Position numbers and translations under genes: made by a program. Positions 8,981 to 63,625 of a stretch of DNA of 64,000 nucleotides are shown here, in pieces. How positions within the stretch are numbered: position 1 is the stretch's first letter; every line of letters starts with the position of its first letter. Source of the stretch: Streptomyces akebiae (lineage in GTDB: Bacteria; Actinomycetota; Actinomycetes; Streptomycetales; Streptomycetaceae); assembly GCF_019599145.1 (NCBI RefSeq), contig NZ_CP080647.1:496001-560000 (forward strand). The letters are read 5' to 3'. Under the pieces are notes generated by a model. It did not search any database. It saw only the letters and a list, made by a program, of their open reading frames with translations, and was not told the origin of the DNA.

Positions 8981-8991
8981 GGGAACCGAAG

Positions 8992-10335: not shown

Positions 10336-10349
10336 AGGACATTCCTCAG

Positions 10350-11552: not shown

Positions 11553-11591
11553 CGTTCCGCCTCCGTCGCCGGCCGGGCTCCTGGCGATCTG

Positions 11592-12287: not shown

Positions 12288-12385
12288 GACGGCCCTTTCC
12301 CTTTCGAGTGTTTTGTAGGTCCTGCCTGCCTAGACAGGCGACCGGCGGCGACGGTTGTGGGAGAGCCCACGCTGAGACGAAACAG

Positions 12386-12414
12386 TTACACAGCCGGGAA
12401 TTCGGATATAGGGT
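12386..12414 (+). promoter_or_regulatory. Promoter for a probably leaderless transcript
   Basis: TTACAC (12386-12391), a 17-base spacer and TAGGGT (12409-12414, a match to the Streptomyces TAGRRT -10) lie directly before the ATG at 12422. Transcription would start at or next to the start codon, and no Shine-Dalgarno sequence is present. Confidence 0.5.
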
Positions 12415-12421
12415 TACCCCC

Positions 12422-12907: not shown

Positions 12908-12917
12908 TCGCGGAGTC

Positions 12918-12943
12918 CCGGAGTCCGGCATTCCGGACTCCGG
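12918..12943. terminator. Hairpin terminator
   Basis: Perfect 11-base arms CCGGAGTCCGG and CCGGACTCCGG with loop CATT, ten bases after the AhpD-like gene. Confidence 0.75.
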
Positions 12944-12987
12944 GGGAAGGCTCTCGAAGATTCATCCACAATTCAGTGAACGCCGTC

Positions 12988-13020
12988 AGCGCCGGGCCGA
13001 ATTCCTTTCGGCCCGGCGCT
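12988..13020. terminator. Second, stronger hairpin between convergent genes
   Basis: Perfect 14-base arms AGCGCCGGGCCGAA and TTCGGCCCGGCGCT with a five-base loop (TTCCT). It lies 27 bases beyond the minus-strand aminotransferase gene end and can end transcription from both sides; the TTCC/TTTC around the loop gives short U stretches. Confidence 0.75.
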
Positions 13021-13047
13021 TCTCCGCGCCCGTATATCGCTGTGAAT

Positions 13048-13842: not shown

Positions 13843-13938
13843 TCGGTGCTCCTGTCGGTCTTTCGGTTCCATGTTCCACGGCCGTGCGAGTCCCGCGGGT
13901 GGTGCGAGTCGCTCGCCGGTTCGGTGCTCGCGACCGGT

Positions 13939-16739: not shown

Positions 16740-16742
16740 GGC

Positions 16743-47918: not shown

Positions 47919-48007
47919 CGCGGCTGCGCCGCCCGGCGCCAGTCGTGACGCAACACTCCCGTCCCCACCAGGGCCCTTGAGCGGGCCACCGATCGAAAGG
48001 AAGCGAT

Positions 48008-48124
48008 ATGGCACTTCTCGACCTGCAGACGATGGAAGCCGACGAGACCACCGGCACCGGCGGCCCCAGCTCCCTGAGCGTGCTGTCCTGTGTGAGCGCG
48101 GCCAGCATCACGCTCTGCCTCTGA
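48008..48124 (+). CDS. SapB/AmfS-type lanthipeptide precursor
   Basis: A 38-residue class III precursor, too short for ordinary gene finding. The leader begins MALLDLQTME, with the conserved LLDLQ motif recognised by LanKC. The core has two SxxSxxxC motifs: Ser21-Ser24-Cys28 and Ser30-Ser33-Cys37, each able to form a lanthionine or labionin ring. Known family members (SapB, AmfS) are surface-active peptides that help aerial hyphae rise. AAAGGAAG lies before the ATG. The gene sits between LanKC and the two exporters, in the known ram/amf order, and a strong hairpin follows it. Confidence 0.93.
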   Translation: MALLDLQTMEADETTGTGGPSSLSVLSCVSAASITLCL

Positions 48125-48196
48125 CCCGAGCGGGGCGTCCCGGCCACCCGGGACGCCCGTCGGACCCGCACGGCGGCTGAGTCGCGCCGACGGCTC

Positions 48197-48235
48197 CGGA
48201 CGGTTCCTCTCCCCTGTCCGGGGAGGGGCCGTCCG
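48197..48235 (+). terminator. Strong hairpin downstream of the lanthipeptide precursor gene
   Basis: Stem made of CGGACGG-tt-CCTCTCCCC and GGGGAGGGG-CCGTCCG around loop TGTCC, 72 bases after the precursor stop. It should cut read-through into the exporter genes and raise the precursor:transporter ratio. Confidence 0.7.
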
Positions 48236-48320
48236 GGGCTCATCCATCTGGCCACCCGGCCGCCCCGCTCGACGGCCGTTCGTCCACCTTCACCGGGCCC
48301 CATCGAGCCCAGCGGGCCCC

Positions 48321-48452
48321 TCCGGTCATTCGTCCGGCCGTTCATCCGGCCGTTCATCCGGCCGTTCATCCGGCCGTTCATCCGGCCGTTCATCCGGCCG
48401 TTCATCCGGCCGTTCGTCCGGTCCTTCATCCGGCCGTTCATCCGGTCGTCCC
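48321..48452. repeat. 12-base tandem repeat array
   Basis: Eleven units of TCCGGCCGTTCA, most identical (48333-48404 gives six perfect copies), with degenerate units at both ends (48321, 48405, 48417, 48441). It ends 14 bases before the exporter start codon and lies between the precursor terminator and the first exporter gene. Confidence 0.9.
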
Positions 48453-48466
48453 ACGTCAGGACGGGT

Positions 48467-50266
48467 ATGACGACCCTCACCGAAGGCGCTGCCCACTGCC
48501 CGGCGGCAGTCTCCGACCCCCTGCTGCGCGCCACCGTCCGCCACTCCGGCCCCCGCTGCACGGCCCTGGCGCTCGTATCCATGGCCTCGACGGGGGCGAA
48601 CCTGTCGCTGCCGGTCGCGCTGGGCCGGGCCCTCGACCTGCTGCTGGCCCGCGACCCGGACGGCTCGCGCTGGGTGCTGTGGTGCGCGGCGCTGGTCCTC
48701 GCGGTGGCCGTCCTCGACGCGGTCGAGACCGTGCTCGGCGGCACCACGAACGCCCGGGCCACCGCTTGGCTGCGCCACCGTCTGGTCCGGCATGCCCTGG
48801 CCGTGGGGCCACGCGCCCTCACCCGGTTCGGCCCGGGAGACCTGGTGGCCCGGCTCGTCGGGAACGCGGCCCAGGCGGGAACGGCCCCCGCGACCGCCGC
48901 CGCGCTGCTCGCCGCGCTCGCCGGGCCCCTGGGCGCGGTGGCGGCCCTCGCGTTGATCGACCCGCGGCTCGCGGCGGTCTTCCTGATCGGTGCCCCGCTG
49001 CTCGCCCTCGTGCTGCGCGCCCTCGCGCGGGACTCCTCCGACTGCGTGACGCGCTACCAGCGCGCCCAGGGCCGTATCGCGGGCGGCCTGGCCGAGGCCG
49101 TCGCCGGGCACCGCACGATCGTGGCCGCCGGCACGGCGGACCGCACCGTCGCCCGCGTCCTGCGTCCCCTGGCCGAACTCTCGGACCAGGGGCACCGCAT
49201 GTGGCACGTCCAGGGCCGCGCCGCCGCCCGAGCCGCCACCGTGGCCCCGCTCCTGCAACTCGCCGTCGTGGCCACCGCCGGCGTCCTGCTCGCCCGACAG
49301 CACCTGTCCGTGGGCGAGTTGCTGGCCGCGTCCCGCTACGCCGTACTGGCCGCGGGCGTCGGCGTCCTGGTCGGGCAGCTCTCGGGCCTGGTCCGCGCGC
49401 GGACGGCGGCAGAGCGCCTGGACGAGGTACGGAGCGAGCCCCCGACCACGTACGGCGAACGTGCCCTGCCGCCCGCCGGGACGGGCCGACTGGAGCTGCG
49501 CTCCGTGACCGTCCGCCGGGGCGGGCGCACCGTGTTGGACCGCGTCGATCTGGTGGTCCCGGCCGGCGCCACGGTCGCCGTCGTGGGCCGGTCGGGCGCG
49601 GGCAAGTCGCTGCTCGCGGCCGTGGCCGGGCGGTTGACGGATCCCGACGACGGAGAGGTACGGCTCGACGGGGTGCCCCTGCCCGAGCTGGACCGCCGGG
49701 AGCTGCGCCGGGCGATCGTCCACGCCTTCGAACGCCCGGCCCTGCTGGGTGGGTCGGTGGAGGACACCATCGCCTTCGGCGTCGTCCGCCCCTCCCCCGC
49801 CCGCATCCGGGAGGCGGCCCGAGCCGCGCACGCCGACGGCTTCGTCCGCCGCCTCCCCGACGGTTACGCCACTCCCTGCGCCGACGCTCCTCTGTCCGGT
49901 GGTGAGGCGCAACGCCTGGGCCTGGCCCGCGCGTTCGCCCGCGACAGTCGTCTCCTGGTGCTCGACGACGCCCTCTCCAGCCTCGACACCCTCACCGAGC
50001 ACGACATCACCGACGCCCTCCTGCGCCCCACCACCGGTGGCAGCCGCCTGCTCATCGCCCACCGCGTCACCACGGCCGCCCGCGCGGACACGGTGGTGTG
50101 GCTGGAGAAGGGGAGGGTGCGGGCGGTGGGGCCGCATACAGAGCTGTGGCGGACGGCGGATTACCGGGAGTTGTTCGGGTCGTGGGCCCCGGTCGGCACG
50201 GGCCGGGCGGACGCCGCCCGCGACGGCACCGCGTCGCGGGGCGTGCCGGGCGGAGAGGGCCGATGA
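48467..50266 (+). CDS. Lanthipeptide ABC exporter subunit A (RamA/AmfB type)
   Basis: A 599-residue half-transporter with about six membrane helices (residues 30-310) and a C-terminal ATPase. Walker A is 'GRSGAGKSL' (about residue 375) and the signature is 'LSGGEAQR'. Walker B is 'LLVLDDALSSLD': the catalytic Glu is replaced by Asp, so this ATP site is probably weak or inactive. That pattern is typical of heterodimeric exporters, where only one site is competent. It should pair with the next gene, whose start overlaps its stop (ATGA). AGGAC precedes the ATG. Confidence 0.9.
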   Translation: MTTLTEGAAHCPAAVSDPLLRATVRHSGPRCTALALVSMASTGANLSLPVALGRALDLLLARDPDGSRWVLWCAALVLAVAVLDAVETVLGGTTNARATAWLRHRLVRHALAVGPRALTRFGPGDLVARLVGNAAQAGTAPATAAALLAALAGPLGAVAALALIDPRLAAVFLIGAPLLALVLRALARDSSDCVTRYQRAQGRIAGGLAEAVAGHRTIVAAGTADRTVARVLRPLAELSDQGHRMWHVQGRAAARAATVAPLLQLAVVATAGVLLARQHLSVGELLAASRYAVLAAGVGVLVGQLSGLVRARTAAERLDEVRSEPPTTYGERALPPAGTGRLELRSVTVRRGGRTVLDRVDLVVPAGATVAVVGRSGAGKSLLAAVAGRLTDPDDGEVRLDGVPLPELDRRELRRAIVHAFERPALLGGSVEDTIAFGVVRPSPARIREAARAAHADGFVRRLPDGYATPCADAPLSGGEAQRLGLARAFARDSRLLVLDDALSSLDTLTEHDITDALLRPTTGGSRLLIAHRVTTAARADTVVWLEKGRVRAVGPHTELWRTADYRELFGSWAPVGTGRADAARDGTASRGVPGGEGR

Positions 50267-52245
50267 AGGGCGGCCGGGGAGGACGACGGCGTGCCGGGGG
50301 CGGCCTCCGCCCGCCCGGCCTCCTCCGTCGGGGCCTGCGCTTTCTTCGCGGGCGGGCGCGGGTCGTCGCACGGCTGGTTCTGTGGTCCGTGGTGGAGACG
50401 GGACAGACCTTTCTGATGGGGTACGCCCTCGCGCGGGCCCTCGACGACGGGTTCCTCGTGGGGCGGGCCGGGGTCGGGCTGGGGTGGCTCGGGGCCGGTG
50501 CGGGGGCGGTGGTGCTGGGGGCGCTGGGCACGTGGCGGGTGTACGGGTGCGTGGCGGGGCTCGTGGAGCCGTTGCGGGACCGGCTGGTGCGCGGGGTGGT
50601 CGAACGGGGGGTCCGGGAGGCGGACGGCGGGGCGCTGTCCGGGCTGACCCAGCAGGTGGAGATCGCCCGGGACACCTTCGCCGGACTCGTCATGGTGTCC
50701 CGCTCGTTCCTGTTCACCTCCGCCGGGGCGCTCGTCGGACTCTTCTCGCTGGCCCCGCCCCTGCTGCTGGTCGTCGGGCCCCCGCTGCTCGTCGGCGTCG
50801 CCCTCTTCCTGGTGACGCTCAGGCCCCTGGCCCGCCGCCAGGAGGGCTTCCTCGTCGCCGACGAGGCCCTCGCCGACCGGCTCGGGGCCGTCTGTCCGGG
50901 CTTGCGGGACATCACGGCGGCCGGCGCGGAGGACACGGTCGCCGCCGACACCGGCCGGTGCGTCGACGCCGAACTGCGGGCCGCTCGCTCCCTGGCCCGC
51001 TGGGGCGTCGCACGGGTCGCCTCCCTCGCGATCGGTGGCCAACTGCCCGTCGTGCTGCTCCTGGTCACCGCCCCTTGGCTTTTGGACCACGGGGTCACGG
51101 CGGGCGCCCTGGTCGGCGCCCTCGCCTACGTCACCCAGTCCCTCCTCCCCGCCCTGCAGAACCTGGTCCACGGCCTGGGCACCAGCGGCTCCCGCCTCGC
51201 GGTGGTCCTCCGCCGGCTGGCCCCGGTGCCCGCCCCACCGCCCCCGAAGGACGCCCCCCGGCCCTCGACGCCGACCCCGTCGCCGGCGGATCCCGGCGTC
51301 CCAGGCGAGGCCGATGTCCGCGACGCCCTCCCCCGCGCGGCGGCCTCGCACGACGCTCTCCGCCTCGCCTCCGTCACCTTCGCCTACGGTTCCCGCGGCA
51401 CCCCCGTCCTCGACGGGCTCGACCTGCGCATCCCCCACGGCACGCACCTGGCCGTCGTCGGTCCCAGCGGCGTCGGCAAGTCCACTCTCACCGGGGTCGT
51501 CGCGGGTCTCCTGCGCCCCCGGCACGGCACCGTCCACTTGTGTGGCCGCCCGGTACCCGGCGTCACATCCCGCGCACACCGGGTGCTCATCCCGCAGGAG
51601 GCGTACGTCTTCGGGGGATCCCTCGAAGAAAACCTCGGCGAGCTACGGCCGAAACCCGTGCCCGAGGACGAGCTGTGGGCCGCCGCGGAGGCCGTGGGGC
51701 TCACCGAGGTGATGGTCCGGCTGGGCGGCCCGGCCGCCGAGGTCGACCCGCGCGCGCTGTCCGCCGGGGAACGGCAACTCGTCGCGTTGGGGCGCGCGTA
51801 TCTGTCGTACGCGTCGGTCGTGATCCTCGACGAGGCGACCTGTCACCTGGACGCGGAGGCGGAGGAACGCGCGGAGCGGGCCTTCGCCCGTCGGCCGGGC
51901 ACGACCCTCGTGGTCGTCGCGCACCGCGTCAGCTCGGCCCGCCGCGCGGACCGGGTGCTGCTCATGGACGGACGGTCCGCCGCGTACGGGGACCACGACG
52001 ACCTCATGGCCCGCTCACCGCTCTACCGGGACCTGGTCGGCGCCTGGTCCCCGGTTCCCGTACCGGTCCGCTCCCCCGGCGCCTCAGAGCCATCCCTCCC
52101 CCTGCGAGATCCTGATGGCGTCGATCCTGTTGCGCGCCCCCGTCTTACGGGTGATCGCGGCCATGTAGTTGCGCACGGTTCCGTGGGAGAGGTGCAGGCT
52201 GCCGGCGATCTCCGCGACGGAGGCTCCCTCGGCAGCCAGGGATAA
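50263..52245 (+). CDS. Lanthipeptide ABC exporter subunit B (RamB/AmfA type)
   Basis: A 660-residue half-transporter. It has an Arg-rich start, membrane helices, a Pro-rich linker (about residues 325-350) and an ATPase with Walker A 'GPSGVGKST' (about residue 400), signature 'LSAGERQ' and an intact Walker B 'VVILDEATCHLD'. With subunit A it should form a heterodimer exporting the modified peptide. The conserved domain ends near 'LYRDLVGAWSP' (base 52050); about 65 extra residues run on, and the last 54 codons are antisense to the convergent regulator gene. The tail looks non-conserved. Confidence 0.88.
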   Translation: MKGGRGGRRRAGGGLRPPGLLRRGLRFLRGRARVVARLVLWSVVETGQTFLMGYALARALDDGFLVGRAGVGLGWLGAGAGAVVLGALGTWRVYGCVAGLVEPLRDRLVRGVVERGVREADGGALSGLTQQVEIARDTFAGLVMVSRSFLFTSAGALVGLFSLAPPLLLVVGPPLLVGVALFLVTLRPLARRQEGFLVADEALADRLGAVCPGLRDITAAGAEDTVAADTGRCVDAELRAARSLARWGVARVASLAIGGQLPVVLLLVTAPWLLDHGVTAGALVGALAYVTQSLLPALQNLVHGLGTSGSRLAVVLRRLAPVPAPPPPKDAPRPSTPTPSPADPGVPGEADVRDALPRAAASHDALRLASVTFAYGSRGTPVLDGLDLRIPHGTHLAVVGPSGVGKSTLTGVVAGLLRPRHGTVHLCGRPVPGVTSRAHRVLIPQEAYVFGGSLEENLGELRPKPVPEDELWAAAEAVGLTEVMVRLGGPAAEVDPRALSAGERQLVALGRAYLSYASVVILDEATCHLDAEAEERAERAFARRPGTTLVVVAHRVSSARRADRVLLMDGRSAAYGDHDDLMARSPLYRDLVGAWSPVPVPVRSPGASEPSLPLRDPDGVDPVARPRLTGDRGHVVAHGSVGEVQAAGDLRDGGSLGSQG

Positions 52246-52686
52246 CACGCTCAACTCCCGCCGGGTCAGCGGCATCTCGGCGGCCTTGAGGAAGCCGAAG
52301 CCGAGGGAGTCGTCGATGAAACGTCTCCCTCGGGCGACCTCCCGGATCGCGGACACCAGCCGCTGCGGGGAGCCCTCCTTGTCCACGTAGCCGAGGGCAC
52401 CCGCCTCCGCCGCCCGCTTGAGGAGGCCGGGTCTGCCGGCGTGGGCGAGGACCAGCAGGCCGGGGGCGGGGCCGCCCGTGCCGCGCAGATCGGCGAGCGG
52501 CGGGATGCCGACCGCGTCCGCGCAGTCCAGGTCCGCCGCGCAGACCTCGGGCCGCAAGGTCCGCACCCGCCCCGGCGCGACGCGCCAGGACGCGTCGAAC
52601 ACCGCCAGGTCGGGTTCCCGGCAGAGCCACTCCGCCAGCACCGATCTGACCAGACATTCGTCGTGCACGAGAAGTACCCGGATCAC
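52084..52686 (-). CDS. RamR/AmfR-type response regulator
   Basis: A 200-residue regulator of the size of RamR. It has an N-terminal receiver ('IRVLLVHDECLVRSVLAEW', Asp in 'VCAADLDCAD', Lys in 'GYVDKEG') that is short of one acidic residue, and a LuxR helix-turn-helix ('LTRRELSVLSLAAEGASVAEIAGSLHLSHGTVRNYM'). Such proteins activate the lanthipeptide operon and aerial development. GTG 52686 has GGAGG about seven bases upstream. No cognate kinase is adjacent, as is usual for RamR. It converges on and overlaps the second exporter gene. Confidence 0.9.
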   Translation of the reverse strand: MIRVLLVHDECLVRSVLAEWLCREPDLAVFDASWRVAPGRVRTLRPEVCAADLDCADAVGIPPLADLRGTGGPAPGLLVLAHAGRPGLLKRAAEAGALGYVDKEGSPQRLVSAIREVARGRRFIDDSLGFGFLKAAEMPLTRRELSVLSLAAEGASVAEIAGSLHLSHGTVRNYMAAITRKTGARNRIDAIRISQGEGWL

Positions 52687-52968
52687 GTTCGCCCCTCCGC
52701 CTGCCGGCCACCGATGTCCTCCGCTCAGCGCGTGCCCATTGTTGGCGTCCCCGACCATGCCCGGGCGCGAAGAACCAGCCATCGGGGTGCGTGGGGGCGC
52801 ACTCGCGGCGCCCGTGCGCGCTGCCGCGCATCATCGCGGGGGCATGGCGGGGTCGACAGGGGGTACAGCGGTGTGTCCGCGGCGCGGCTCTCGCCGTGCG
52901 CGGTCGGCCCCCAGGGGGGAGCCTTGACCCTGGGGTCTGTCGCACGGTCGTGCGAGGAGGTGGTCGGC

Positions 52969-55113
52969 ATGTCCGACGTCCACGTGTCCGGAGCGCGGAC
53001 GACCGTCGAGACGGGCCGCGTCGGCCATCCTCTGCTGTCGCTGGCGCTGGCCGCGATGATGGACGACGTCCAGGCCCACTCCGGCGCGGTGTATCTGCTG
53101 ACACCGGACGAGCCGGTGCTGGAGATGGCGGTCATGGCGGGGCTGCCGAGGTCGTTCGCCGCGCCCTGGGAACGGGTGGGACTGAACTCGCCGATACCGG
53201 TCTCCGAGGCCGTGCGGGGGCGGCGCCTGGTGTGGGTCAACGGCGAGGAGCAGATGGCTCGCCGCTATCCCCGGATCGCCGTGGTCCTGCCCTACCCGTT
53301 CGCCCTGGCCGCGCTGCCGGTGGCGACCCGCGACACCATCTACGGCGCCGTCTTCCTGACCTGGCCCGGCTCCCACCCGCCGGAGCTCAGCGAGCGCGAA
53401 CGGGACCAGCTGACCTCGGCCTGCGACCGGCTCGCGATGCGGCTGCGGCGCGCCGAGGACGAGGGCCGTCCGGTGCTGCCGGAACCGGACCTGTCGGCGC
53501 CCTCGACGACCACGGTCGCGGGCACGCTCGGCACGGTGGAGGCCGCGCGGATGGTGGCGCGGCTGCCGTACGGGATGTGCGCGCTCGATCTGCACGGGCG
53601 GATCACCTTCGCCAACGCGGCCACGGCCGAACTGCTCGGCATCCCGGTGAGCGGTCTGCTGGGCACCCAGCTGTGGGTGTCCGTGCCGTGGCTCAACGAT
53701 CCCGCGTACGAGGACCGGTACCGGGCGGCCCTGATGAGCCAGCACGTGACCTCGTTCGTGGCGCTGAGACCGCCGAGCGACTGGCTGTCCTTCCGGCTGT
53801 ACCCGGGGAGCAACGGCCTGAGCGTACGGATCTCCCGGGCCCGCGCGGTCGCCGAGGCCGAGCACGCGTCGCGGGAGGAGGACCACGGGCCGGGCCGTCT
53901 GGTCACCATCCACCACGTGCTGGCGCTGGCGAGCGCGCTCACCGAGGCGGTCGGGGTGCAGGACGTGGTGGACCTGGTCGCCGACGAGATCGCCCCGGCC
54001 ATCGGCAGCCAGGCCCTGGTGATGCTCGGCTCCCGCGCGGGGCGCCTGCATGTGCTCGGGCACCGCGGCTACGCCGACCCGCACCTCGTGGAACGCTTCG
54101 ACGGGATGCCGCTCACCGCGGCGATGCCCGGGGCGCACGCGCTGACCACCGGGGTACCCGCGTTCTTCGAGTCCCGGCAGCAGCTGGAGCACCTCTATCC
54201 GCTGCGCCAGGAGACCCCGGACGGGCTGGGCGCCTGGGCGTACATCCCGCTGATCGCCTCGGGGCGGCCGGTGGGCACCTGGGTGCTGGGGTACGCGGAG
54301 CCGCATCCGTTCCCGGCCGAGGAGCGCGCGGTGCTGACCAGCCTCAGCGGCCTCATCGCCCAGGCGCTGGAGCGGGCGCTGCTGTACGACGCCAAGCACC
54401 AGGTGGCACACGGGCTCCAGAAGGCGCTGCTGCCGCACTCGCTGCCCTCCATCCCGGGCATCGAGTCCGCCTCGCGCTATCTGCCCGCCACCCGTGGCAT
54501 GGACATCGGCGGCGACTTCTTCGACCTGGTCCTCTCCCACGGGAGGGCCTCGGCCGTCATCGGCGACGTGCAGGGGCACAACGTGACGGCGGCGGGGCTG
54601 ATGGGGCAGATCCGTACGGCGGTGCGCGCGTACACGACCGTCGGGCAGACGCCGGAGGAGGTGATGAGCAGTACCAACCGGCTGCTGATCGACCTGGGTT
54701 CGGAACTGTTCGCCAGCTGTCTGTATCTGCGGCTGGACCCGGAGCACGGGACGGCCGTCATGGCGCGGGCCGGGCATCCGCCGCCGTTGCTGCGCCGGCC
54801 GGACGGGAAGGTGCGGGTGCTCGACCTCGCGGGTGGTCCGCTGCTGGGGATCGACGCGGCGGCGACGTACCCGACGACGGAGGTGGCGCTGACGGAGGGT
54901 TCGGTGCTGGTCCTGTACACGGACGGGCTGATCGAGTCGCCGGGTGTCGACATCGAGGACGCGCTGGCGGATCTCGGGGAGCGATTGTCGTCGGCCGGGG
55001 AGCGGCCGCTGGACGCGCTGGCCGACAGTCTGGTGAGGGAGACCGAGGCGGCGGAGGAACGGGCGGACGACGTGGCGCTGCTGCTGCTCCGGGCCACCGG
55101 TTCCGCGGGCTGA
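52969..55113 (+). CDS. SpoIIE-type PP2C phosphatase with GAF and PAS domains
   Basis: A 714-residue regulatory phosphatase. In order: GAF (residues about 20-155), PAS ('YGMCALDLHGRITFANAATAELLGIPVSG', about 200-300), second GAF (about 325-470) and SpoIIE PP2C ('GGDFFDLVLSHGRASAVIGDVQGHNVTAAGLMGQIRTA', then 'LYTDGLIESPG'). Unlike the phosphatase at 42332-44878 it lacks a C-terminal ATPase domain. It likely dephosphorylates an anti-anti-sigma factor in response to a bound small molecule. GAGGAGG lies eight bases before the ATG at 52969. Confidence 0.9.
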   Translation: MSDVHVSGARTTVETGRVGHPLLSLALAAMMDDVQAHSGAVYLLTPDEPVLEMAVMAGLPRSFAAPWERVGLNSPIPVSEAVRGRRLVWVNGEEQMARRYPRIAVVLPYPFALAALPVATRDTIYGAVFLTWPGSHPPELSERERDQLTSACDRLAMRLRRAEDEGRPVLPEPDLSAPSTTTVAGTLGTVEAARMVARLPYGMCALDLHGRITFANAATAELLGIPVSGLLGTQLWVSVPWLNDPAYEDRYRAALMSQHVTSFVALRPPSDWLSFRLYPGSNGLSVRISRARAVAEAEHASREEDHGPGRLVTIHHVLALASALTEAVGVQDVVDLVADEIAPAIGSQALVMLGSRAGRLHVLGHRGYADPHLVERFDGMPLTAAMPGAHALTTGVPAFFESRQQLEHLYPLRQETPDGLGAWAYIPLIASGRPVGTWVLGYAEPHPFPAEERAVLTSLSGLIAQALERALLYDAKHQVAHGLQKALLPHSLPSIPGIESASRYLPATRGMDIGGDFFDLVLSHGRASAVIGDVQGHNVTAAGLMGQIRTAVRAYTTVGQTPEEVMSSTNRLLIDLGSELFASCLYLRLDPEHGTAVMARAGHPPPLLRRPDGKVRVLDLAGGPLLGIDAAATYPTTEVALTEGSVLVLYTDGLIESPGVDIEDALADLGERLSSAGERPLDALADSLVRETEAAEERADDVALLLLRATGSAG

Positions 55114-55277: not shown

Positions 55278-56666
55278 CTACTGCTGGACGCCCTGCTCCT
55301 CGACGCCCTGCTCCTCGACGCCCTGCTCATGCTCCTGGCCCGCTTCACCGGCACCGGCGGCGGCACCCGCGTCACCGGCACCCTCGTCGCCCGCGCCGGC
55401 CACGGCACCCTCGTCGCCGGCGCCCGCGGCTGCGGCGCCCTCTTCCTCACCCGCGCCCGCGGCTGCGGCGCCCCCTTCCTCACCGGCACCGGCGGCGGCA
55501 CCGCCGTCGGCCTCCTCGCCGGCGCCCGCGCCGGCGTCGCCGAGGGTGGCACCCGTGGCCGCGAGGGCGGTGGTGACCGGCTGGAAGAAGGTCTCGCCGC
55601 CGACGGTGCAGTCGCCGCTGCCGCCGGAGGTCAGACCGATGGCCTGGCCGTCCTCGGTGAACAGCGAGCCGCCGCTGTCGCCGGGCTCGGCGCAGACGTT
55701 GGTCTGGATGAGTCCGGTGACCGTGCCCTCGGGGTAGTTCACCGTGGCTTCGAGGCCGGTGACCTGGCCGTCGGCGAGACCGGTGGTGCTGCCCATGCGG
55801 AAGACCTGGAGGCCGACCGCCGCCTCGCCGGCCGCGGTGATGTCGACCGTCTGGCCGTTGCCGAGGTCGACCGTGCTGGCCGCCTGCGTCGCCGGGTCGT
55901 TGTAGTCGACCAGGGCGAAGTCGCCGGCGCCCGGGAACGTGGCGGTCGCGGCGTCGACGGTGCCGATCGGCGCGCCGCCCTCCTCCTCGGACCACTCGGC
56001 CTCCGCGACACCGCAGTGACCGGCGGTCAGGAAGGCCGGGGCGCCCTCGGCGTTGACGACGTTGAAGCCGGCCGAGCAGCGGGCGCCGCCACCGAAGATG
56101 GCGTCGCCGCCCTCCAGGAAGGGCTTGAAGGTACCGGCGGACTTCTTGATGGTCGCCATGTCCGCGCCGAGCGACTTGACCGTCGACTCGATGGTGTCCC
56201 AGTTCTCGCCCGTGACCGTGGAGTCGGCGGTGACCTGGAGCTTGTTCGTGCGGGGGTCGATCGCCCAGGCGGTGCCGGGGACGGTGGCCTCCTCCTTCAG
56301 CGTGGCCGCGCCCTTCAGCAGTTCGGACCAGCTGTTCTCGACCTCACGGACCTCCGCGCCGGCCTCCTGGGCCTGGATGATCACGTTGTTGTCGTCGCCC
56401 TCGATCTGAAGGCCGTCGATGACGTTGATGATGAGGCGCTGTTCGCCCGAGTCGTAGTACGCGCCTGCGAACGCGTCACCGAGCAAGTCCTGCAGCTGGG
56501 AGGCGAGATCCGAGGCGTCACTCGCGGCGAGCGTCTTCGGGGCGGCGCCCTTGGCGTCCGTCTGCGACGCCATCGCGTTCGGCAGGATGAGGGCTGCCGC
56601 GCCGAGCGCCGCCACGCCGCCTGCGGCTATGAACGCCTTGCGCTTGGTGGCTCGTTTGTGACTCAA
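55278..56666 (-). CDS. Secreted S1 (streptogrisin-like) protease with Gly/Ala/Glu repeat tail
   Basis: A 462-residue precursor: signal peptide (KAFIAAGGVAALGAAALILPNAMA), pro-region and chymotrypsin-fold domain with His in 'LTAGHCGVAE', Asp in 'DFALVDYND' and Ser in 'AEPGDSGGSLF'. After residue about 380 comes a low-complexity tail of GAGEE/AAAGAGDEG units, ending with EQGVEEQGVQQ repeats. No membrane anchor is present, unlike the paralogue at 4055-5431. It starts with TTG at 56666, supported by AGGAGG eight bases upstream. It is divergent from the double-glycine peptide locus. Confidence 0.9.
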   Translation of the reverse strand: MSHKRATKRKAFIAAGGVAALGAAALILPNAMASQTDAKGAAPKTLAASDASDLASQLQDLLGDAFAGAYYDSGEQRLIINVIDGLQIEGDDNNVIIQAQEAGAEVREVENSWSELLKGAATLKEEATVPGTAWAIDPRTNKLQVTADSTVTGENWDTIESTVKSLGADMATIKKSAGTFKPFLEGGDAIFGGGARCSAGFNVVNAEGAPAFLTAGHCGVAEAEWSEEEGGAPIGTVDAATATFPGAGDFALVDYNDPATQAASTVDLGNGQTVDITAAGEAAVGLQVFRMGSTTGLADGQVTGLEATVNYPEGTVTGLIQTNVCAEPGDSGGSLFTEDGQAIGLTSGGSGDCTVGGETFFQPVTTALAATGATLGDAGAGAGEEADGGAAAGAGEEGGAAAAGAGEEEGAAAAGAGDEGAVAGAGDEGAGDAGAAAGAGEAGQEHEQGVEEQGVEEQGVQQ

Positions 56667-57374
56667 CTCTTGACCTCCTGGGGACGGGGTCCGTACCGCC
56701 GTCCGGCGGGTGAACTGGGGGCGCCTGGTTGCCAGTTGGTACGGATGGTTCCGATGGGGTGTTCAACGCCCCGCGAAAAGATTCCGATCTTCCACTTCGC
56801 AAAGCGCGCTACGCCCCCCGTTGGCCTGCCATTTCACGACTTCCCGTCGGCGCGCCCGGTGGGAACCCCGTGACACCGGCGCCCCACCCCCCGCCTCGCC
56901 ACACTCGGCTACCGCCCGGTGGCGGTCTGTCGACTCCGATGATCGGGAAACCGGCTTCAGGGAATCTCCACACCGAATGCCCAGCGGGGTCACGGTCGCG
57001 GGGAGTTCTGCACAGGGGCGAATCGCGCGTCGCGCCTTTGAGGCGGGACTGTCCAATTCGTTTTCACGCAGGCAATCAAGCGCGTATGACGATGCCGCGA
57101 TCCATGTGAAGAAGCTGGCCCCAAGCCGTGCGCAAGCCTGCACCAATGAACCGTCATGGTCACCAAGTGCGCTGGTGAGAGGCCATGTTGATTGGATGTG
57201 CGCGGCGGCGATCTGCTTATATCCATCGCACCGCGGGGGCCGCCGAGCTCTCGGAGACGGGAGCAGCCAGCTCTCCGGATCGAGAAGTGGGCACCCACGT
57301 GCGCGGCCGTCGTTCTGTCCCCAGAAGGGGGCCGCTCCCCCCTTGTGAATAGCTATATGAAGGGAAGTTCCAAC
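56667..57374. other. 708-base divergent intergenic region before the peptide gene
   Basis: This is the longest gene-free stretch. The middle (about 57040-57225) is noticeably less GC-rich than the surroundings. A weak promoter candidate is TTGGAT (57192-57197), 19 bases, TTATAT (57217-57222), which would give a leader of about 140 bases for the peptide mRNA. I found no credible second peptide gene, although short frames are open. Confidence 0.4.
57325..57344 (+). promoter_or_regulatory. Leader hairpin upstream of the peptide gene
   Basis: Perfect seven-base arms AAGGGGG and CCCCCTT with loop CCGCTC, ending 30 bases before the start codon. It could stabilise the mRNA or modulate translation. 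Confidence 0.45.
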
Positions 57375-57590
57375 ATGAACTCCACCCCCCAGGTTGAGAC
57401 CGCCGAGATCTCGGACGCCGCCCTCGACGCCGTCTCCGGTGGCCTCTCGGTCAACGCCGTTGGCACCGTCACCGGCCTGGTGGACGGCATCGCCCCGGTC
57501 TCCGGCCTGGTCAACACGGCCGTCGGCACCGTCGAGGGTGTGACCGGCCTGAACACCGCCCCGGTCACGAGCCTGGTCGCCGGTCTCTGA
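57375..57590 (+). CDS. Double-glycine-leader peptide precursor, NHLM-exported
   Basis: A 71-residue peptide. Leader residues 1-23 ('ETAEISDAALDAVSGG') match the acidic double-glycine leaders cut by C39 peptidases, with cleavage after Gly23. The 48-residue core has no Cys, aromatic or basic residue, is rich in Val, Gly, Thr and Leu, and is internally duplicated: residues 27-46 (NAVGTVTGLVDGIAPVSGLV) align with 47-68. Just downstream are HlyD, C39-ABC and NHLM-ABC genes. ATG 57375 has AAGGGAA about nine bases upstream; ATG 57357 is less likely. Bacteriocin, signal or surface peptide: function not known. Confidence 0.85.
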   Translation: MNSTPQVETAEISDAALDAVSGGLSVNAVGTVTGLVDGIAPVSGLVNTAVGTVEGVTGLNTAPVTSLVAGL

Positions 57591-57608
57591 TCGAGCCCTG
57601 ACGCCGCT

Positions 57609-57642
57609 GAGTCCCGGAACCACCTGACAGGTTCCGGGACTC
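57609..57642 (+). terminator. Strong hairpin after the peptide gene
   Basis: Perfect 13-base arms GAGTCCCGGAACC and GGTTCCGGGACTC with an eight-base loop, 18 bases past the stop. It separates the peptide from its export genes, so the peptide mRNA can be far more abundant, a usual layout for precursor peptides. Confidence 0.8.
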
Positions 57643-57736
57643 TCGGGGTGCCCCGGAAGTCCTCGGCTCCTGTGCCGACCGGCCTTCCGCCATCCAGTCT
57701 TCTGTCGTCTCCTGTCACGCAGGTGAGGGAAGTCCC

Positions 57737-58543
57737 GTGCAGTTCCGCCAACAGGCCCTCGCCAAGCTCCAGTCACCGGAGGAACTCGACCTCCCCGTGC
57801 GCTTCGCCCGCCCCCAGGGCTGGCTGGTGCTGTCCGTGACGGTGATCGCGATGGCCGCCGCCTCCGTGTGGGCCGTCACGGGGTCCGTCGCCTCCACGGT
57901 CGGCGCGCCCGCCGTCCTCACCCACGGGCAGGGCAGTTACGTGCTGCAGAGCCCGGTCGCCGGCCAGGTCACCGCCGTCCTCGCGAAGCAGGGCGAGCGA
58001 CTGCCCGCCAAGGCCCCCGTCCTGAAGGTCGCCACCACCGACGGCGAGACCGTCGTACGGTCCGTCGCGGCCGGCCGGGTCTCCGCGCTCGCCGCCACGA
58101 TCGGCCAGATCATCCAGACCGGCGCGAACGTCGCGGCCGTCGAGAAGGTCGCCGACGCCGACGACCCGCTCTACGCGACGGTGTACGTCCCCGCCGAGAA
58201 CGCGGCCTCGATCCCGAAGGACGCCGAGGTGGACCTGACCGTGCAGTCGGCGCCCACCCAGCGCTACGGCGTGCTGCGCGGCCATGTGAAGAAGGTGGAC
58301 CGCACCGCGCAGACCCCGCAGTCCATCGGCGCGTTCCTCGGTGACACCCAGCTGGGCGAGCAGTTCACCAAGAAGGGCCGGCCGGTGGCCGTCACCGTAC
58401 GGCTGGACCGCGCGGCCTCGACCGAGTCGGGCTACAGGTGGTCCTCGCAGGACGGGCCGCCGTTCGAGCTGACCTCCATGACCATGGCCACGGCTTCGAT
58501 CCGGATGGCCGACGAGCGTCCGATCGATTGGCTGCTTCCGTGA
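57737..58543 (+). CDS. HlyD-like NHLM secretion adaptor
   Basis: A 268-residue membrane-fusion protein. It has a short cytoplasmic N-terminus, one membrane helix ('WLVLSVTVIAMAAASVWAVTG') and a periplasm-like part with the lipoyl/barrel segments 'GSYVLQSPVAGQVTAVLAKQGERLPAKAPVLKV' and 'AAGRVSALAATIGQIIQTGANVAAVE'. It is shorter than full HlyD proteins and lacks the long coiled coil, as in NHLM-type adaptors of Gram-positives. It links the two ABC proteins and guides the peptide outward. GAGGGAAG precedes GTG 57737. Its stop overlaps the next start (GTGA). Confidence 0.88.
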   Translation: MQFRQQALAKLQSPEELDLPVRFARPQGWLVLSVTVIAMAAASVWAVTGSVASTVGAPAVLTHGQGSYVLQSPVAGQVTAVLAKQGERLPAKAPVLKVATTDGETVVRSVAAGRVSALAATIGQIIQTGANVAAVEKVADADDPLYATVYVPAENAASIPKDAEVDLTVQSAPTQRYGVLRGHVKKVDRTAQTPQSIGAFLGDTQLGEQFTKKGRPVAVTVRLDRAASTESGYRWSSQDGPPFELTSMTMATASIRMADERPIDWLLP

Positions 58544-60777
58544 CCGCGTCCCAGGACACCGCCCAGCCGCCCACGCACGGCAGACGCAAGGCGGCCCCGT
58601 CGAAGCGCCCGGTGCCGAGGGGCAGGCAGAAGACCGTGCGCACGCCGACCGTCCTCCAGATGGAGGCCGTGGAGTGCGGCGCCGCGTCCCTCGCCATGGT
58701 GCTCGGCCACTACGGACGGCACATCCCGCTGGAGGAACTGCGCATCGCCTGCGGTGTCTCCCGGGACGGCTCGCGCGCCAGCAACCTGCTGAAGGCGGCC
58801 CGCAGTTACGGACTGACCGCCAAGGGCATGCAGATGGACGTGGCCGCCCTCGCCGAGGTGAAGGCACCGGCCGTCCTGTTCTGGGAGTTCAACCACTACG
58901 TCGTCTACGACGGCATGGGGCGCCGCTTCGGCCGGCGCGGCGTCCACATCAACGACCCCGGCAAGGGCCGCCGGTTCGTGCCCATGGAGGAGTTCGACTC
59001 CAGCTTCACCGGTGTCGTCCTCGTCATGGAGCCCGGCGCCGACTTCGCGAAGGGCGGTCGCAGGCCCGGTGTCCTCGGCGCCATGCCCGCCCGGATGCGC
59101 GGCACCGCCGGCACGCTGCCCGCCGCCGTCCTCGCCAGCCTCCTCCTGGTGGCGGTCGGCGCGGCCGTCCCCGCGCTGAGCCGTACCTACATCGACATGT
59201 TCCTGATCGGCGGCCAGACCTCCCTGCTGGGCGTGCTGTTCGCGTCGATGGGCGCGTGCGTGCTGCTGACCGTCCTGCTGACCTGGTTGCAGCAGGCCAA
59301 CCTGCTGCGCGGCCGGCTGATCTCCTCCACCCTCTCCAGCGCCCGCTTCCTGCGGCACCTCCTGCGCCTGCCGGTCACCTTCTTCTCCCAGCGCAGCCCC
59401 GCCGACCTCGTCCAGCGGCTGCAGTCCAACGACGCGGTCGCCGAGACCCTGGCCCGGGATCTCGCGGCGGCCGGTGTGGACGCGGTCGTGGTCGTCCTCT
59501 ACGCCGTGCTCCTCTACACGTACGACCCGCAGCTCACCTTCGTCGGCATCGCGGTGGCGCTGCTGAACGTGGTGGCGATGCGGGTGGTGATCCGGCTGCG
59601 CGCGACCCGTACGGCGAAGCTGCGCGCGGACAACGCGCGGCTCACCAACACGGCGTACACCGGACTGCAGCTGATCGAGACGATGAAGGCGACCGGCGGC
59701 GAGGAGGGCTACTTCCGCAAGTGGGCCGGGCAGCACGCCACCACGCTGGAGGAACAGCAGCGGCTGGGGGTGCCGAGCGCCTGGCTGGGGGTCGTCGCCC
59801 CGACCCTGGCCACGATCAACAGCGCGCTCATCCTGTGGATCGGCGGTATGCGGGCGGTCGAGGGCCATATATCCGTGGGTCTGCTGGTCGCGTTCCAGGC
59901 TCTGGTCACCCGGTTCACGGCGCCCCTCACCCGCCTCAACGGGGTGGCGGGCCGTATCCAGGACTTCGCGGCCGACGTGGCCCGGCTGAAGGACGTGGAG
60001 AACTTCCGGGCCGACCCGTTGTACGCCCGCCCGGACTCCGCCGAGTCCACGCGTCGGCTCAACGGCCATGTCGAGCTGGAGAACATCACCTTCGGCTACA
60101 GCCCTCTCGACAAGCCCCTGCTCACGGGCTTCGACCTCACCGTCGGGCCGGGGCAGCAGGTGGCGCTCGTCGGCGGCTCCGGCAGCGGCAAGTCGACGGT
60201 GTCGAGGCTGATCTCGGGCCTCTACACCCCGTGGGAGGGCGTGATCCGCATCGACGGCCGTCGCCTGGAGGACATCCCGAGGGGGGCGCTGGCCGCCTCC
60301 GTCTCCTTCGTCGACCAGGAGGTGTTCCTCTTCGAGGGCACCGTCCGCGACAACGTCGCCCTGTGGGATCCCTCGATCCCGGAGGAGGCCGTGGTGGAGG
60401 CGCTGCGGGACGCGGCCCTGTACGACGTGGTGACGCGTCGCCCGGGTGGCATCAACAGCAGGGTCGAGCAGGACGGACGCAACTTCTCCGGCGGGCAGCG
60501 CCAACGCCTGGAGATCGCGCGGGCGTTGGTCCGCAGGCCCAGCATCCTGGTCCTCGACGAGGTGACCAGCGCGCTGGACGCGGAGACCGAGCTGACCGTC
60601 ATGGACAACCTGCGCAAGCGCGGCTGCGCCTGTGTGGTGATCGCCCACCGGCTCAGCACGGTCCGCGACAGCGACGAGATCGTCGTCCTGCAGCACGGCA
60701 CGATCGTGGAGCGCGGCCGGCACGAGGAGCTGGTGGCCCGCGGCGGCGCGTACGCCCAACTCGTCAGGGAGCGATGA
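58540..60777 (+). CDS. NHLM-type ABC transporter with C39 peptidase domain
   Basis: A 745-residue bacteriocin-type exporter. The N-terminal C39 peptidase has Cys46 ('QMEAVECGAASLAMVLGHYG'), His119 ('FNHYVVYDG') and Asp139 ('HINDPGKGRR'), all expected catalytic residues, so it should cut the leader after Gly-Gly. The membrane domain (about residues 190-480) is followed by an ATPase with Walker A 'GGSGSGKST', signature 'FSGGQRQR' and Walker B 'ILVLDEVTSALD'. It is translationally coupled to the HlyD gene. Its dedicated substrate is almost certainly the peptide at 57375. Confidence 0.93.
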   Translation: MTASQDTAQPPTHGRRKAAPSKRPVPRGRQKTVRTPTVLQMEAVECGAASLAMVLGHYGRHIPLEELRIACGVSRDGSRASNLLKAARSYGLTAKGMQMDVAALAEVKAPAVLFWEFNHYVVYDGMGRRFGRRGVHINDPGKGRRFVPMEEFDSSFTGVVLVMEPGADFAKGGRRPGVLGAMPARMRGTAGTLPAAVLASLLLVAVGAAVPALSRTYIDMFLIGGQTSLLGVLFASMGACVLLTVLLTWLQQANLLRGRLISSTLSSARFLRHLLRLPVTFFSQRSPADLVQRLQSNDAVAETLARDLAAAGVDAVVVVLYAVLLYTYDPQLTFVGIAVALLNVVAMRVVIRLRATRTAKLRADNARLTNTAYTGLQLIETMKATGGEEGYFRKWAGQHATTLEEQQRLGVPSAWLGVVAPTLATINSALILWIGGMRAVEGHISVGLLVAFQALVTRFTAPLTRLNGVAGRIQDFAADVARLKDVENFRADPLYARPDSAESTRRLNGHVELENITFGYSPLDKPLLTGFDLTVGPGQQVALVGGSGSGKSTVSRLISGLYTPWEGVIRIDGRRLEDIPRGALAASVSFVDQEVFLFEGTVRDNVALWDPSIPEEAVVEALRDAALYDVVTRRPGGINSRVEQDGRNFSGGQRQRLEIARALVRRPSILVLDEVTSALDAETELTVMDNLRKRGCACVVIAHRLSTVRDSDEIVVLQHGTIVERGRHEELVARGGAYAQLVRER

Positions 60778-60778
60778 G

Positions 60779-63625
60779 ATGACCTCCGTGCACGAGGACC
60801 CGAGCGGTCAGGGCGGCTACGACGGCGACCTCGTCCTCGGCGCGCTCGGCGCGATGGGCACATCCCTCGACTGCGCCGGCCACACCCGCCTGGACCTCGA
60901 AGGCCCGCAGACGCTGTGGCTGGTGGCCTCCGGTGCCCTGGACCTGTTCGCGGTCGACGCCGTCCAGCAGGGCCACTGGCACCATCTGGGCCGCCTCGAA
61001 GCGGGTGCGCTGCTGCTCGGTCCGGTCGCCGGGCCCCAGCACACGCTGGTCGCCCGCCCGCTGCGCGACTGCGTGGTCCGGCGCATCGGCCTGCGTGAGC
61101 TGTACCAGCAAGGGGGCACCGAGACCTGGTCGTACGACGAGTGGGGCAACCCGCAGCTCGTACCCCCGCAGACGAGCCCTCTCGAATACGCCCTCGCGCT
61201 GGGCGTCGGCCGTGGCCTGTCCATCCTCTTCCAGGCGCCGATGGCCACCGAGCAGGCCGCCGCGCCCACCGACGACGACGTGTTCTGGATGCGGGTGCCG
61301 CCCGGCAGTGTCCAGTACGGCTCGCTGTACGGCGCGGAGGCGGCGGCCGATCTGCTGATGGACCCGGGGGTCTGGCAGAGCATGGTCGACCAGCAGTACC
61401 GGCTGCTGGCCACGCTGGACCGCTGGATCGAGCAGCTGGAGCGCACCCACGAGGACCGTACGGCCGCCGGGATCAAGGCCGGTGAGGCAGTACGCGCGCA
61501 GGCCGACCGCACCCTGCTCGCCTCCATCGGCAAGTCCTCGACGAACCGGCGTACGACGGCCGCCGACGCGGACGCCACGTACGCGGCCTGCGGGCTCGTC
61601 GCCCGGGCGGCGGGGATCTCGCTGTCGGAGCCGGCGCAGAGCGGCACCGAGAGCGACCGGCTCGACCCCGTGGAACGCATCGCGCTCGCCTCCCGGGTCC
61701 GCGTCCGTGCCGTACGCCTCGCCGGAAGCTGGTGGCGGGAGAACGTCGGGCCGTTGGTCGGGCACCGGGCGCTGTCCGGTGCGCCGGTGGCGCTGCTGTG
61801 GCGGCGCGGCGGCTATGTGGCCGTCCAGCCGTCGTCCGGCCGGGAGACACCGATCGAGAAGGCGAACGCGGCCGAGTTCGAGCCGCGTGCCGTGATGTTC
61901 TACCGCCCGCTGCCCGAACGGGTACTGAGTCCGCTGCGCCTGATGCGGTTCAGCCTCCACGGGACGAGCGGTGACATGACGGGCCTGCTGCTCAGCGGGC
62001 TGGTGACGGTCGTGCTCGGCTCGCTCGTGCCCGTCGCGACGGGCCGGATCCTGGGCGAGTACGTGCCGAAGGCCCAGGAGAACCTGATCGTGCAGGTCTG
62101 TCTGGCGATCATGCTCGCGAGTGTGGTGTCGGCGGCGTTCCTGCTGCTGCAGAACCTGACGATCCTCCGTCTGGAGGGCCGTATCGAGGCCACGCTGCAA
62201 CCGGCGGTCTGGGACCGTCTGTTGCGGCTGCCGACCAAGTTCTTCACCTCGCGTTCCACGGGCGAACTGGCCAGCGCGGCCATGGGCATCAGCGCGATCC
62301 GCCGCACCCTGGCAGGCGTCGGCCCGGTGGTCGCCCAGTCGGTGACCGTCGGAGCGGTGAACCTCGCCCTGCTGCTCTGGTACAGCGTCCCGATGGCTCT
62401 GGCGGCGATCGGCATGCTGGTCGTCGTGGCGGCGGTGTTCCTCGGCCTCGGTCTGTGGCAGGTCCGCTGGCAGCGCCGTCTGGTGGTGCTGGGCAACAAG
62501 CTGAACAACCAGGCCTTCCAGACCCTGCGGGGTCTGCCGAAGCTCCGGGTGGCTGCCGCCGAGAACTACGCCTACGCGGCCTGGGCCGGCGAGTTCGCGC
62601 GCAGCCGGGAGCTCCAGCAGAAGGTAGGTGGCATCAAGAACCTCAACACGGTGCTGGGCGCGGTGTATCTCCCCCTGTGCACCCTGCTGATGTTCATGCT
62701 GCTGGCGGGCCCGGCACGCGGTTCGATGTCGGCGGCCGAGTTCCTGACCTTCAACACCTCGGTGACGATGCTGCTGACGTCGGTCACCCAGCTGACGGGG
62801 GCCTTCGTGTCGGCGGTGGCCGTGCTGCCGCTGTTCGAGGAGATCAAGCCGGTGCTGGAGGCGACGCCGGAGGTCCGCACGGCGAGCACCCGGCCGGGCG
62901 TTCTGTCCGGAGCGCTGGAGGCCCGCCGGGTCTCCTTCCGCTATGCGGACGACGGACCGCTCGTGCTGGACGACGTGTCCTTCGCCGTCGAGCCCGGGGA
63001 GTTCGTGGCGATCGTCGGCCCGAGCGGCTGCGGGAAGTCGACCCTGCTGCGCCTGCTCATCGGTTTCGACAGGCCGGTCTCCGGGAGCGTCCTGTACGAC
63101 GGTCAGGACCTCGGCGCCCTGGACCAGTCCGCCGTACGCCGTCAGTGCGGTGTCGTGCTCCAGCACGCACAGCCGTTCACCGGCTCGATCCTGGACGTCA
63201 TCTGCGGCACCGAGCCGTTCACGCCCGAGGAGGCGATGGCGGCGGCCGCGATGGCGGGCCTGGCGGAGGACATCCAGCGCATGCCGATGGGCCTGCACAC
63301 CATCGTCCAGGGCAACGGCGCGATCTCGGGCGGGCAGCGGCAACGCCTGATGATCGCCCAGGCGTTGATCCGCCGTCCCCGCATCCTCTTCTTCGACGAG
63401 GCCACGAGCGCCCTCGACAACGAGACCCAGCGCACGGTCATCGAGAGCACGCGGGCCCTGAACGCCACACGGATCGTCATCGCCCACCGGCTGTCCACGG
63501 TGATGGACGCGGACCGGGTGGTGGTCATGGAGGACGGCAAGGTGGCGGAGGTGGGAGCGCCGGGCGAGCTGCTGGCGAACCCCGCCGGGCGGCTGCACGA
63601 GCTGGTGCGCCGCCAGATGGCCTGA
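60779..63625 (+). CDS. NHLM-type ABC transporter, second ATPase subunit
   Basis: A 948-residue protein. The N-terminal soluble part (about residues 1-380) contains a cyclic-nucleotide-binding-like beta region ('LWLVASGALDLFAVD...GALLLGPVAG') and a helical stretch. It is followed by membrane helices (about 395-660) and an ATPase with Walker A 'GPSGCGKST', signature 'ISGGQRQR', Walker B 'ILFFDEATSALD' and 'IVIAHRLSTVMDADRV'. No C39 domain is present. It matches the second ABC protein of NHLM systems, probably the non-peptidase half of a heterodimer. It begins one base after the C39 transporter stop. Confidence 0.92.
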   Translation: MTSVHEDPSGQGGYDGDLVLGALGAMGTSLDCAGHTRLDLEGPQTLWLVASGALDLFAVDAVQQGHWHHLGRLEAGALLLGPVAGPQHTLVARPLRDCVVRRIGLRELYQQGGTETWSYDEWGNPQLVPPQTSPLEYALALGVGRGLSILFQAPMATEQAAAPTDDDVFWMRVPPGSVQYGSLYGAEAAADLLMDPGVWQSMVDQQYRLLATLDRWIEQLERTHEDRTAAGIKAGEAVRAQADRTLLASIGKSSTNRRTTAADADATYAACGLVARAAGISLSEPAQSGTESDRLDPVERIALASRVRVRAVRLAGSWWRENVGPLVGHRALSGAPVALLWRRGGYVAVQPSSGRETPIEKANAAEFEPRAVMFYRPLPERVLSPLRLMRFSLHGTSGDMTGLLLSGLVTVVLGSLVPVATGRILGEYVPKAQENLIVQVCLAIMLASVVSAAFLLLQNLTILRLEGRIEATLQPAVWDRLLRLPTKFFTSRSTGELASAAMGISAIRRTLAGVGPVVAQSVTVGAVNLALLLWYSVPMALAAIGMLVVVAAVFLGLGLWQVRWQRRLVVLGNKLNNQAFQTLRGLPKLRVAAAENYAYAAWAGEFARSRELQQKVGGIKNLNTVLGAVYLPLCTLLMFMLLAGPARGSMSAAEFLTFNTSVTMLLTSVTQLTGAFVSAVAVLPLFEEIKPVLEATPEVRTASTRPGVLSGALEARRVSFRYADDGPLVLDDVSFAVEPGEFVAIVGPSGCGKSTLLRLLIGFDRPVSGSVLYDGQDLGALDQSAVRRQCGVVLQHAQPFTGSILDVICGTEPFTPEEAMAAAAMAGLAEDIQRMPMGLHTIVQGNGAISGGQRQRLMIAQALIRRPRILFFDEATSALDNETQRTVIESTRALNATRIVIAHRLSTVMDADRVVVMEDGKVAEVGAPGELLANPAGRLHELVRRQMA

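Follow-up and report, generated by a model that had tools for sequence, protein, structure and literature searches.

A 64,000-nucleotide stretch of the 10.5-Mb genome of Streptomyces akebiae (referred to here as the window) carries a cassette of four genes that encode a small precursor peptide with a double-glycine leader, a short HlyD-like adaptor, and two ATP-binding cassette (ABC) proteins that we designate ABC1 and ABC2. We see an even chance that this cassette represents a genus-level secretion module, in which an unmodified, hydrophobic peptide is exported for a role at the hyphal surface and the exporter also serves peptides encoded at remote loci. The basic cassette is not a new finding because it matches the published SCO0753-0756 genes of S. 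coelicolor. What is new here is the co-occurrence of the leader with the HlyD protein, the existence of extra leader loci, and an upstream element that is common to the cassette and the remote genes.

Structure and conservation of the cassette

The precursor gene (57375–57590, forward strand) encodes 71 amino acids (MNSTPQVETAEISDAALDAVSGG / LSVNAVGTVTGLVDGIAPVSGLVNTAVGTVEGVTGLNTAPVTSLVAGL) and starts seven bases 3' of a conserved ribosome-binding site, GAAGGGAAG. The first 23 residues (57375–57443) form a leader that ends in VSGG, and the remainder of the gene (57444–57590) encodes a core peptide of 48 residues and the stop codon. An alternative in-frame ATG at 57357 would yield a 77-residue precursor, which is the published length of SCO0753. 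The core is hydrophobic (grand average of hydropathy 1.07), has a net charge of −2 and an average mass of 4462 Da, contains 10 Ser and Thr among its 48 residues, and lacks Cys, Lys, Arg, and aromatic residues. The precursor did not match the NHLP or Nif11 leader models of NCBIfam (E ≤ 1); its sole match in that search was to an ATP-synthase model at 16.8 bits, far under the cut-off of 554 bits.

The three genes that follow on the same strand encode the putative exporter. The HlyD-like adaptor (57737–58543; 268 amino acids) matches PF13437 and scores 149.7 bits against TIGR03794, whose cut-off is 156.2 bits; the best stretch is C-terminal (252–417 of 421). ABC1 (58540–60777; 745 amino acids) combines a C39 peptidase domain (PF03412) with permease and ATPase domains and scores 1025.5 bits against TIGR03796 (cut-off 853.3). 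Its start is a GTG at 58540 that overlaps the HlyD stop codon, and numbering from this codon places the C39 residues at Cys46, His119, and Asp139. The full-length relatives of ABC1 in the PDB include 4ry2, a bacteriocin transporter that we take to be PCAT1, and 8hf4, which is ComA. ABC2 (60779–63625; 948 amino acids) is an NHLM-type permease/ATPase without a peptidase and scores 891 bits against TIGR03797 (cut-off 709.4). An earlier note on this DNA had described a 71-residue precursor with a leader ending in SGG, an HlyD-like adaptor, a transporter that keeps the three C39 residues, and a 948-residue NHLM-type protein; all of these stand. In the comparison of the trio with the NHLM models that it had proposed, both ABC proteins score above their cut-offs and HlyD does not.

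To describe conservation, we use 80 named loci kept from at least 224 confirmed ones (near loci; 81 sequences with the window) and 21 diverged cassettes in which HlyD is 57–67% identical. The peptide, HlyD, and ABC1 are found in all 80 near loci and ABC2 in 79, the contig of the remaining locus (L079) stopping before ABC2; all three exporter genes are present in each of the 21 diverged cassettes. This recurrence of gene order indicates that the cassette is more than a chance arrangement. The earlier note had held that a precursor not conserved beside the trio would count against it; the precursor accompanies the trio in 80 of 80 near loci. Among the matches listed, the closest named relative of the locus is Streptomyces sp. 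MNU76 (peptide 100%, HlyD 98%), and the cassettes of S. stelliscabiei and S. scabiei are also near.

The double glycine is present in 81 of 81 sequences. As the earlier note had reported for the window, Cys is missing from the core, and indeed from every one of the 81 precursors. Lys or Arg occurs in a single core of the 81 and an aromatic residue in none, while the 19 readable peptides of the 21 diverged cassettes (all but those of L192 and L196) are also free of Cys. The raw ratio of nonsynonymous to synonymous polymorphism (pN/pS) across the 81 sequences is 0.31 in the leader compared with 0.52 in the core, as would be expected if recognition by the exporter dominates. The catalytic residues of the peptidase are retained as well: the set of Q40, C46, H119, and D139 is complete at 79 of 80 near loci and at 23 of the 24 other loci that gave an ABC1-like match, and for the two exceptions the peptidase domain is not covered by the alignment. 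It is very likely that the precursor is processed and exported by HlyD, ABC1, and ABC2.

Leader genes remote from the cassette

We searched 199 Streptomyces genomes with leader profile A1 (E ≤ 0.001) and with the HlyD protein (E ≤ 1e-40). The leader was found in 144 genomes and HlyD in 146; three genomes with HlyD only (G028, G038, and G227; 35–45% identity) were dropped as weak. The leader is present in all 143 retained HlyD-positive genomes. Only one genome, 79% complete (G001), has the leader alone, and 55 have neither, the three dropped ones included. The comparison treats species as independent though they are related, and the profile was partly trained on an earlier search of 100 genomes whose Streptomyces members lie largely within the 199; the significance of the co-occurrence is indicative only.

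Many genomes contain more leader genes than the cassette accounts for. With one locus per genome assumed to be the cassette's own (not every locus was placed), we counted 79 extra leader loci in 63 of the 199 genomes, and all 63 are HlyD-positive. The description of the cassette as self-contained in the earlier note therefore applies to the genome of the window, which has no remote sibling at E ≤ 1, but calls for qualification in these other species. Sixteen remote loci (L123–L138) from the 100-genome search were inspected with about 4 kb on each side where the contig allowed, and HlyD, ABC1, and ABC2 were found near none of them. The leaders of 15 remote peptides are alike, whereas their cores are of several kinds and widely different. 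Twenty neighbour proteins from 11 remote loci included neither a C39 exporter nor an enzyme of the lanthipeptide, YcaO, or radical-SAM kind. Judging from the co-occurrence, the leader, and the regulation, the siblings are likely exported in trans by the exporter of the cassette. In these genomes, the cassette appears to be the centre of a regulon of secreted peptides. Similar acyltransferase-3 genes lie near two siblings in different genomes (L127, 2330–3448; L135, 4920–6035, the latter identified by likeness only).

A shared upstream element

A bipartite element on the forward strand precedes the peptide gene in 81 of 81 near cassettes. In the window it spans 57106–57223 and reads GTGAAG (57106), GATTGG (57190), and TGCTTATATC (to 57223). 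We built weight matrices from the 81 cassettes, with siblings and diverged cassettes excluded from the training; the spacing range was set after an earlier comparison with sibling and diverged loci. GTGAAG followed by TGCTTnnATCC at near-fixed spacing scored above the 99th percentile of controls upstream of 14 of 15 siblings and of 18 of the 19 diverged cassettes that were scanned. These controls were 1,500 stretches taken from the same loci, every one of which is outscored by 14 of the 15 siblings.

An exact pattern, chosen after the weight-matrix results, matched 51 times in 100 whole genomes, compared with three matches for a backwards control. For 40 of the 51 matches (38 loci), a leader gene follows on the same strand within 400 bp. 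In the genome of the window, GATTGG...TGCTT matches only at the window site and GTGAAG...TGCTT matches twice, the window site included. Two spacings that differ by about 10 bp predominate within the element, and a few others occur, a weak hint of helical phasing. The element may act as DNA or as RNA, and it offers a direct way to search for the regulator.

The region between the element and the gene is also conserved. At 57295–57380, the 5' untranslated region contains a GCGGCC/GGCCGC stem and a run of C, both 5' of the ribosome-binding site. The stem pairs 57303–57308 with 57330–57335 and might hide the ribosome-binding site.

An RNA hairpin between the peptide and exporter genes

An RNA hairpin with a perfect 13-bp stem and an 8-nt loop (57609–57642, forward strand) lies between the stop codon of the peptide and HlyD. 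A stem of at least 9 pairs (G–T allowed) is found in 78 of 81 sequences compared with 12% of shuffles, and one of at least 11 pairs in 21 of 21 diverged cassettes. Covariation was assessed in 40 of the 81 sequences. Pairing holds in 99.2% of the cells, and 18 cells are changed on both sides; none of 500 shuffles reached either value. Four of the 13 pairs vary on both sides, a number that 38 of the 500 shuffles attain, and shifting the partner destroys the pairing. Rfam gave no match at gathering scores over 55–64 kb, and consensus scans for sigma-70 promoters and T-tailed terminators found none at 56.6–58.6 kb. The simplest reading is that the hairpin serves as a partial terminator or a stabiliser of the mRNA that would keep the peptide above the exporter.

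A model for the cassette and alternative explanations

The observations suggest a model in which the C39 domain of ABC1 binds the 23-residue leader and cleaves it after Gly23. The unmodified 48-residue core would then be pumped out by ABC1 and ABC2 with the short HlyD-like adaptor. By limiting read-through or protecting the message of the peptide, the hairpin would allow the peptide to exceed its exporter. Once outside, the core would most likely act on or coat the hyphal surface, with a morphogenetic or surfactant-like function. Many species would use this exporter for further leader-sharing peptides as well, expressed from remote genes that carry the upstream element too. A surface role, already suggested in print (PMC6629963), is our best single guess for the peptide, given its composition, its breadth, and its published regulation. 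Of the three functions proposed in the earlier note, it fits best.

Several observations weigh against this model. The exact upstream pattern is missing from 22 of 60 leader loci, and 11 of its 51 matches lie elsewhere. Four of the 15 remote peptides contain one Cys, so the term unmodified may not hold for all of them. Constraint on the core is looser than that on the leader and below the strictness of a fixed structural protein. The HlyD-like adaptor falls narrowly below the cut-off of its own model, 24 of 80 near loci have a gene for a small methyltransferase some 9 kb downstream, and the conservation of the cassette is also compatible with a signal.

The peptide might instead be a class II-like, unmodified bacteriocin with a core that renders the membranes of rival bacteria permeable, as the earlier note had proposed among its three functions. 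The pairing of a double-glycine leader with a C39 exporter is the export route of class II bacteriocins, the PDB relatives of ABC1 include a bacteriocin transporter and ComA, the core is hydrophobic with small residues, and the name "type A2 lantipeptide" is attached by NCBI to many members (best 120 of 617). Class II bacteriocins are usually cationic, whereas the core has a net charge of −2 and 80 of 81 cores lack Lys and Arg. In addition, none of the 25 neighbour families present in at least 8 of 80 near loci was recognised as an immunity-type gene (three of them unannotated; open reading frames (ORFs) shorter than 80 codons not called), and a presence in 143 of 199 Streptomyces genomes is broad for a weapon. 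With no immunity-type gene recognised among these families and no basic residue in 80 of 81 cores, a bacteriocin is a poor fit, and we consider it unlikely. ComA-type exporters carry pheromones, and the relationship of ABC1 to ComA would also suit a secreted signal that the producer or its neighbours sense through a two-component system. Siblings with a common leader and upstream element are reminiscent of a quorum regulon, and expression in S. coelicolor depends on Sco5282/Sco5283 (PMC6629963). Set against these points are the length of the cores, the wide differences among the remote ones, and the neighbourhood, in which no receptor or kinase gene is constant and a LuxR-type response regulator lies near only 10 of 80 loci. 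A signal therefore appears quite unlikely to us.

The third alternative is a ribosomally synthesised and post-translationally modified peptide (RiPP) whose enzyme acts in trans, for example on Ser or Thr, in which case the word unmodified would be wrong. NHLM trios have been linked to modified peptides (PMC2887384), Ser and Thr make up 10 of the 48 core residues, and the gene for a class III lanthipeptide synthetase is located 9.5 kb upstream. The earlier note had seen no modifying enzyme at 55–64 kb, and we found none there either; the class III cluster lies further off, at 45.1–52.2 kb, and has its own RamS-like ORF. With flanks of up to 10 kb, the first of its ABC genes turned up at 21 of 80 near loci and the synthetase, intact or cut, at 15; none of 27 other loci had either. 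For this reason, we rejected the cluster as the modifying machinery of the cassette. No RiPP-modifying enzyme is constant among the annotated neighbour families, and Cys is absent from 81 of 81 near peptides and from the 19 diverged ones that could be read. We regard a modified product as quite unlikely.

Beyond the single cassette, there is in our estimate a one-in-two likelihood of a regulon that has not been described, in which an NHLM-type exporter, a resident peptide, and variable remote peptides are united by a common leader and upstream element, act unmodified, and are tied to hyphal morphology. If one C39 exporter does serve scattered, co-regulated, unmodified peptides, Streptomyces would possess a distinct route, apart from those of the chaplins and SapB, by which surface or signal peptides leave the cell, and this would be relevant to pellet formation in fermentation. 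Genome-mining tools should in that case stop filing such loci as lanthipeptide clusters. The name "type A2 lantipeptide" is carried by many Streptomyces relatives (best 120 of 617 in a protein search at E ≤ 0.01). Neither core Cys (0 of 81) nor, among the annotated widespread neighbours, a LanM-type synthetase was found, which leaves the cassette outside class II lanthipeptides despite this label.

Comparison with known systems

The SCO0753-0756 genes of S. coelicolor encode a hydrophobic peptide that lacks Cys, together with an exporter of its own (Arroyo-Perez et al. 2019, PMC6629963). They have the same order as the cassette in the window (peptide, HlyD, two ABC proteins), and their organisation is described as conserved in Streptomyces. 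The published SCO0753 has 77 amino acids, or 71 from the inner start. Our comparison uses the published description; the nearest protein among the matches listed (P0054), named for S. violaceoruber, is 92% identical. According to the same account, no gene is more strongly overexpressed than SCO0753 (log2 6.3) in a regulator mutant with dispersed growth, for which a change in the hyphal surface was suggested, and SCO0753 is almost silent in the regulator null mutant; the genes respond to a regulator that alters mycelial aggregation. SCO0753 is also raised by deletion of Aor1 (PMC5733086). In S. coelicolor, the exopolyphosphatase SCO0757 follows, as a Ppx/GppA family does in 38 of 80 near loci (identified by its scanned representative), whereas the window has DUF6338 and CHAT genes. 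In the parts of the S. coelicolor account covered here, the remote siblings, upstream element, and hairpin do not figure, and we recognised no paper on them in the open-licence literature searched.

NHLM trios (TIGR03794, TIGR03796, and TIGR03797) were linked to modified peptides by Haft et al. (2010, PMC2887384). The NHLP/Nif11 systems resemble the cassette in their exporter families and in having several leader-sharing precursors, some of them remote from modification and export genes. They differ in that the window leader has 23 residues and matches neither NHLP nor Nif11, the HlyD protein is much shorter than its model, the cores of the cassettes are Cys-free, and no modifying enzyme was found.

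The pneumococcal com/blp systems are also comparable. In these Firmicutes, one C39 exporter handles several double-glycine peptides with a common leader and promoter motif, and the pheromone receptor and immunity genes are known; none were seen as constant neighbours of the Streptomyces cassette. Unlike SapB, a class III lanthipeptide, and the chaplins, which are secreted through Sec, the window peptide carries a leader of the double-glycine type and is encoded with a C39 exporter. All three are small and hydrophobic, and SapB and the chaplins are secreted peptides of the Streptomyces hyphal surface (both named in PMC6629963).

Neighbouring genes

We clustered the predicted genes of the 80 near loci into neighbour families. 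Of the 25 families, one gave no match when scanned and three are without annotation. The annotated families comprise a protease, two SpoIIE-type phosphatases, Ppx/GppA, a haem-oxygenase-like protein, an MFS protein, the small methyltransferase, a phosphoesterase, a subtilisin inhibitor, a thioesterase, an epimerase, an AHSA1 protein, a beta-propeller protein, and ArsR-type and LuxR-type regulators. The class III ABC gene (20 loci) and the end of the synthetase gene (LanKC; 14 loci, identified by position) are also included. Besides the protease (73 loci), no annotated family outside the cassette exceeds 43 of 80.

The protease (55278–56666, reverse strand) is of the alpha-lytic type, has a prodomain and a tail rich in Ala, Gly, and Glu, and is divergent from the peptide gene. 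Although tblastn detects it in 76 of 80 near loci, the 21 diverged cassettes give one weak match of 34%. Because it is not kept there, we rejected the protease as a maturation partner and regard it as a neighbour. A phosphatase with SpoIIE, PAS, and GAF domains (52441–55113) was likewise rejected as part of the cassette, its family occurring in 43 of 80 loci. On the 3' side, the DUF6338 and CHAT-domain genes extend from 63671 on (L142, 1172–4932).

The apparently full class III cluster of the RamC/SapB type (45141–52245) consists of a LanKC that scores 1118 bits against NF038151 (cut-off 575), two ABC-type genes (48467–50266 and up to 52245), and a candidate precursor ORF of 38 amino acids (48008–48124), which is presumably RamS-like.

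A diverged NHLM trio (35–48% identity) was observed in G038, one of the genomes dropped from the co-occurrence analysis (L199, G038:C1:377301-397300; 8486–18477). It is accompanied by a dehydrogenase of the SagB family (140 bits, cut-off 78.4), and the locus contains an ORF with a weak NHLP match (24.1 bits, cut-off 50.9) and a separate 98-residue ORF with LSGG. We take the trio as a system distinct from the cassette in the window, and its locus suggests what a modifying version looks like.

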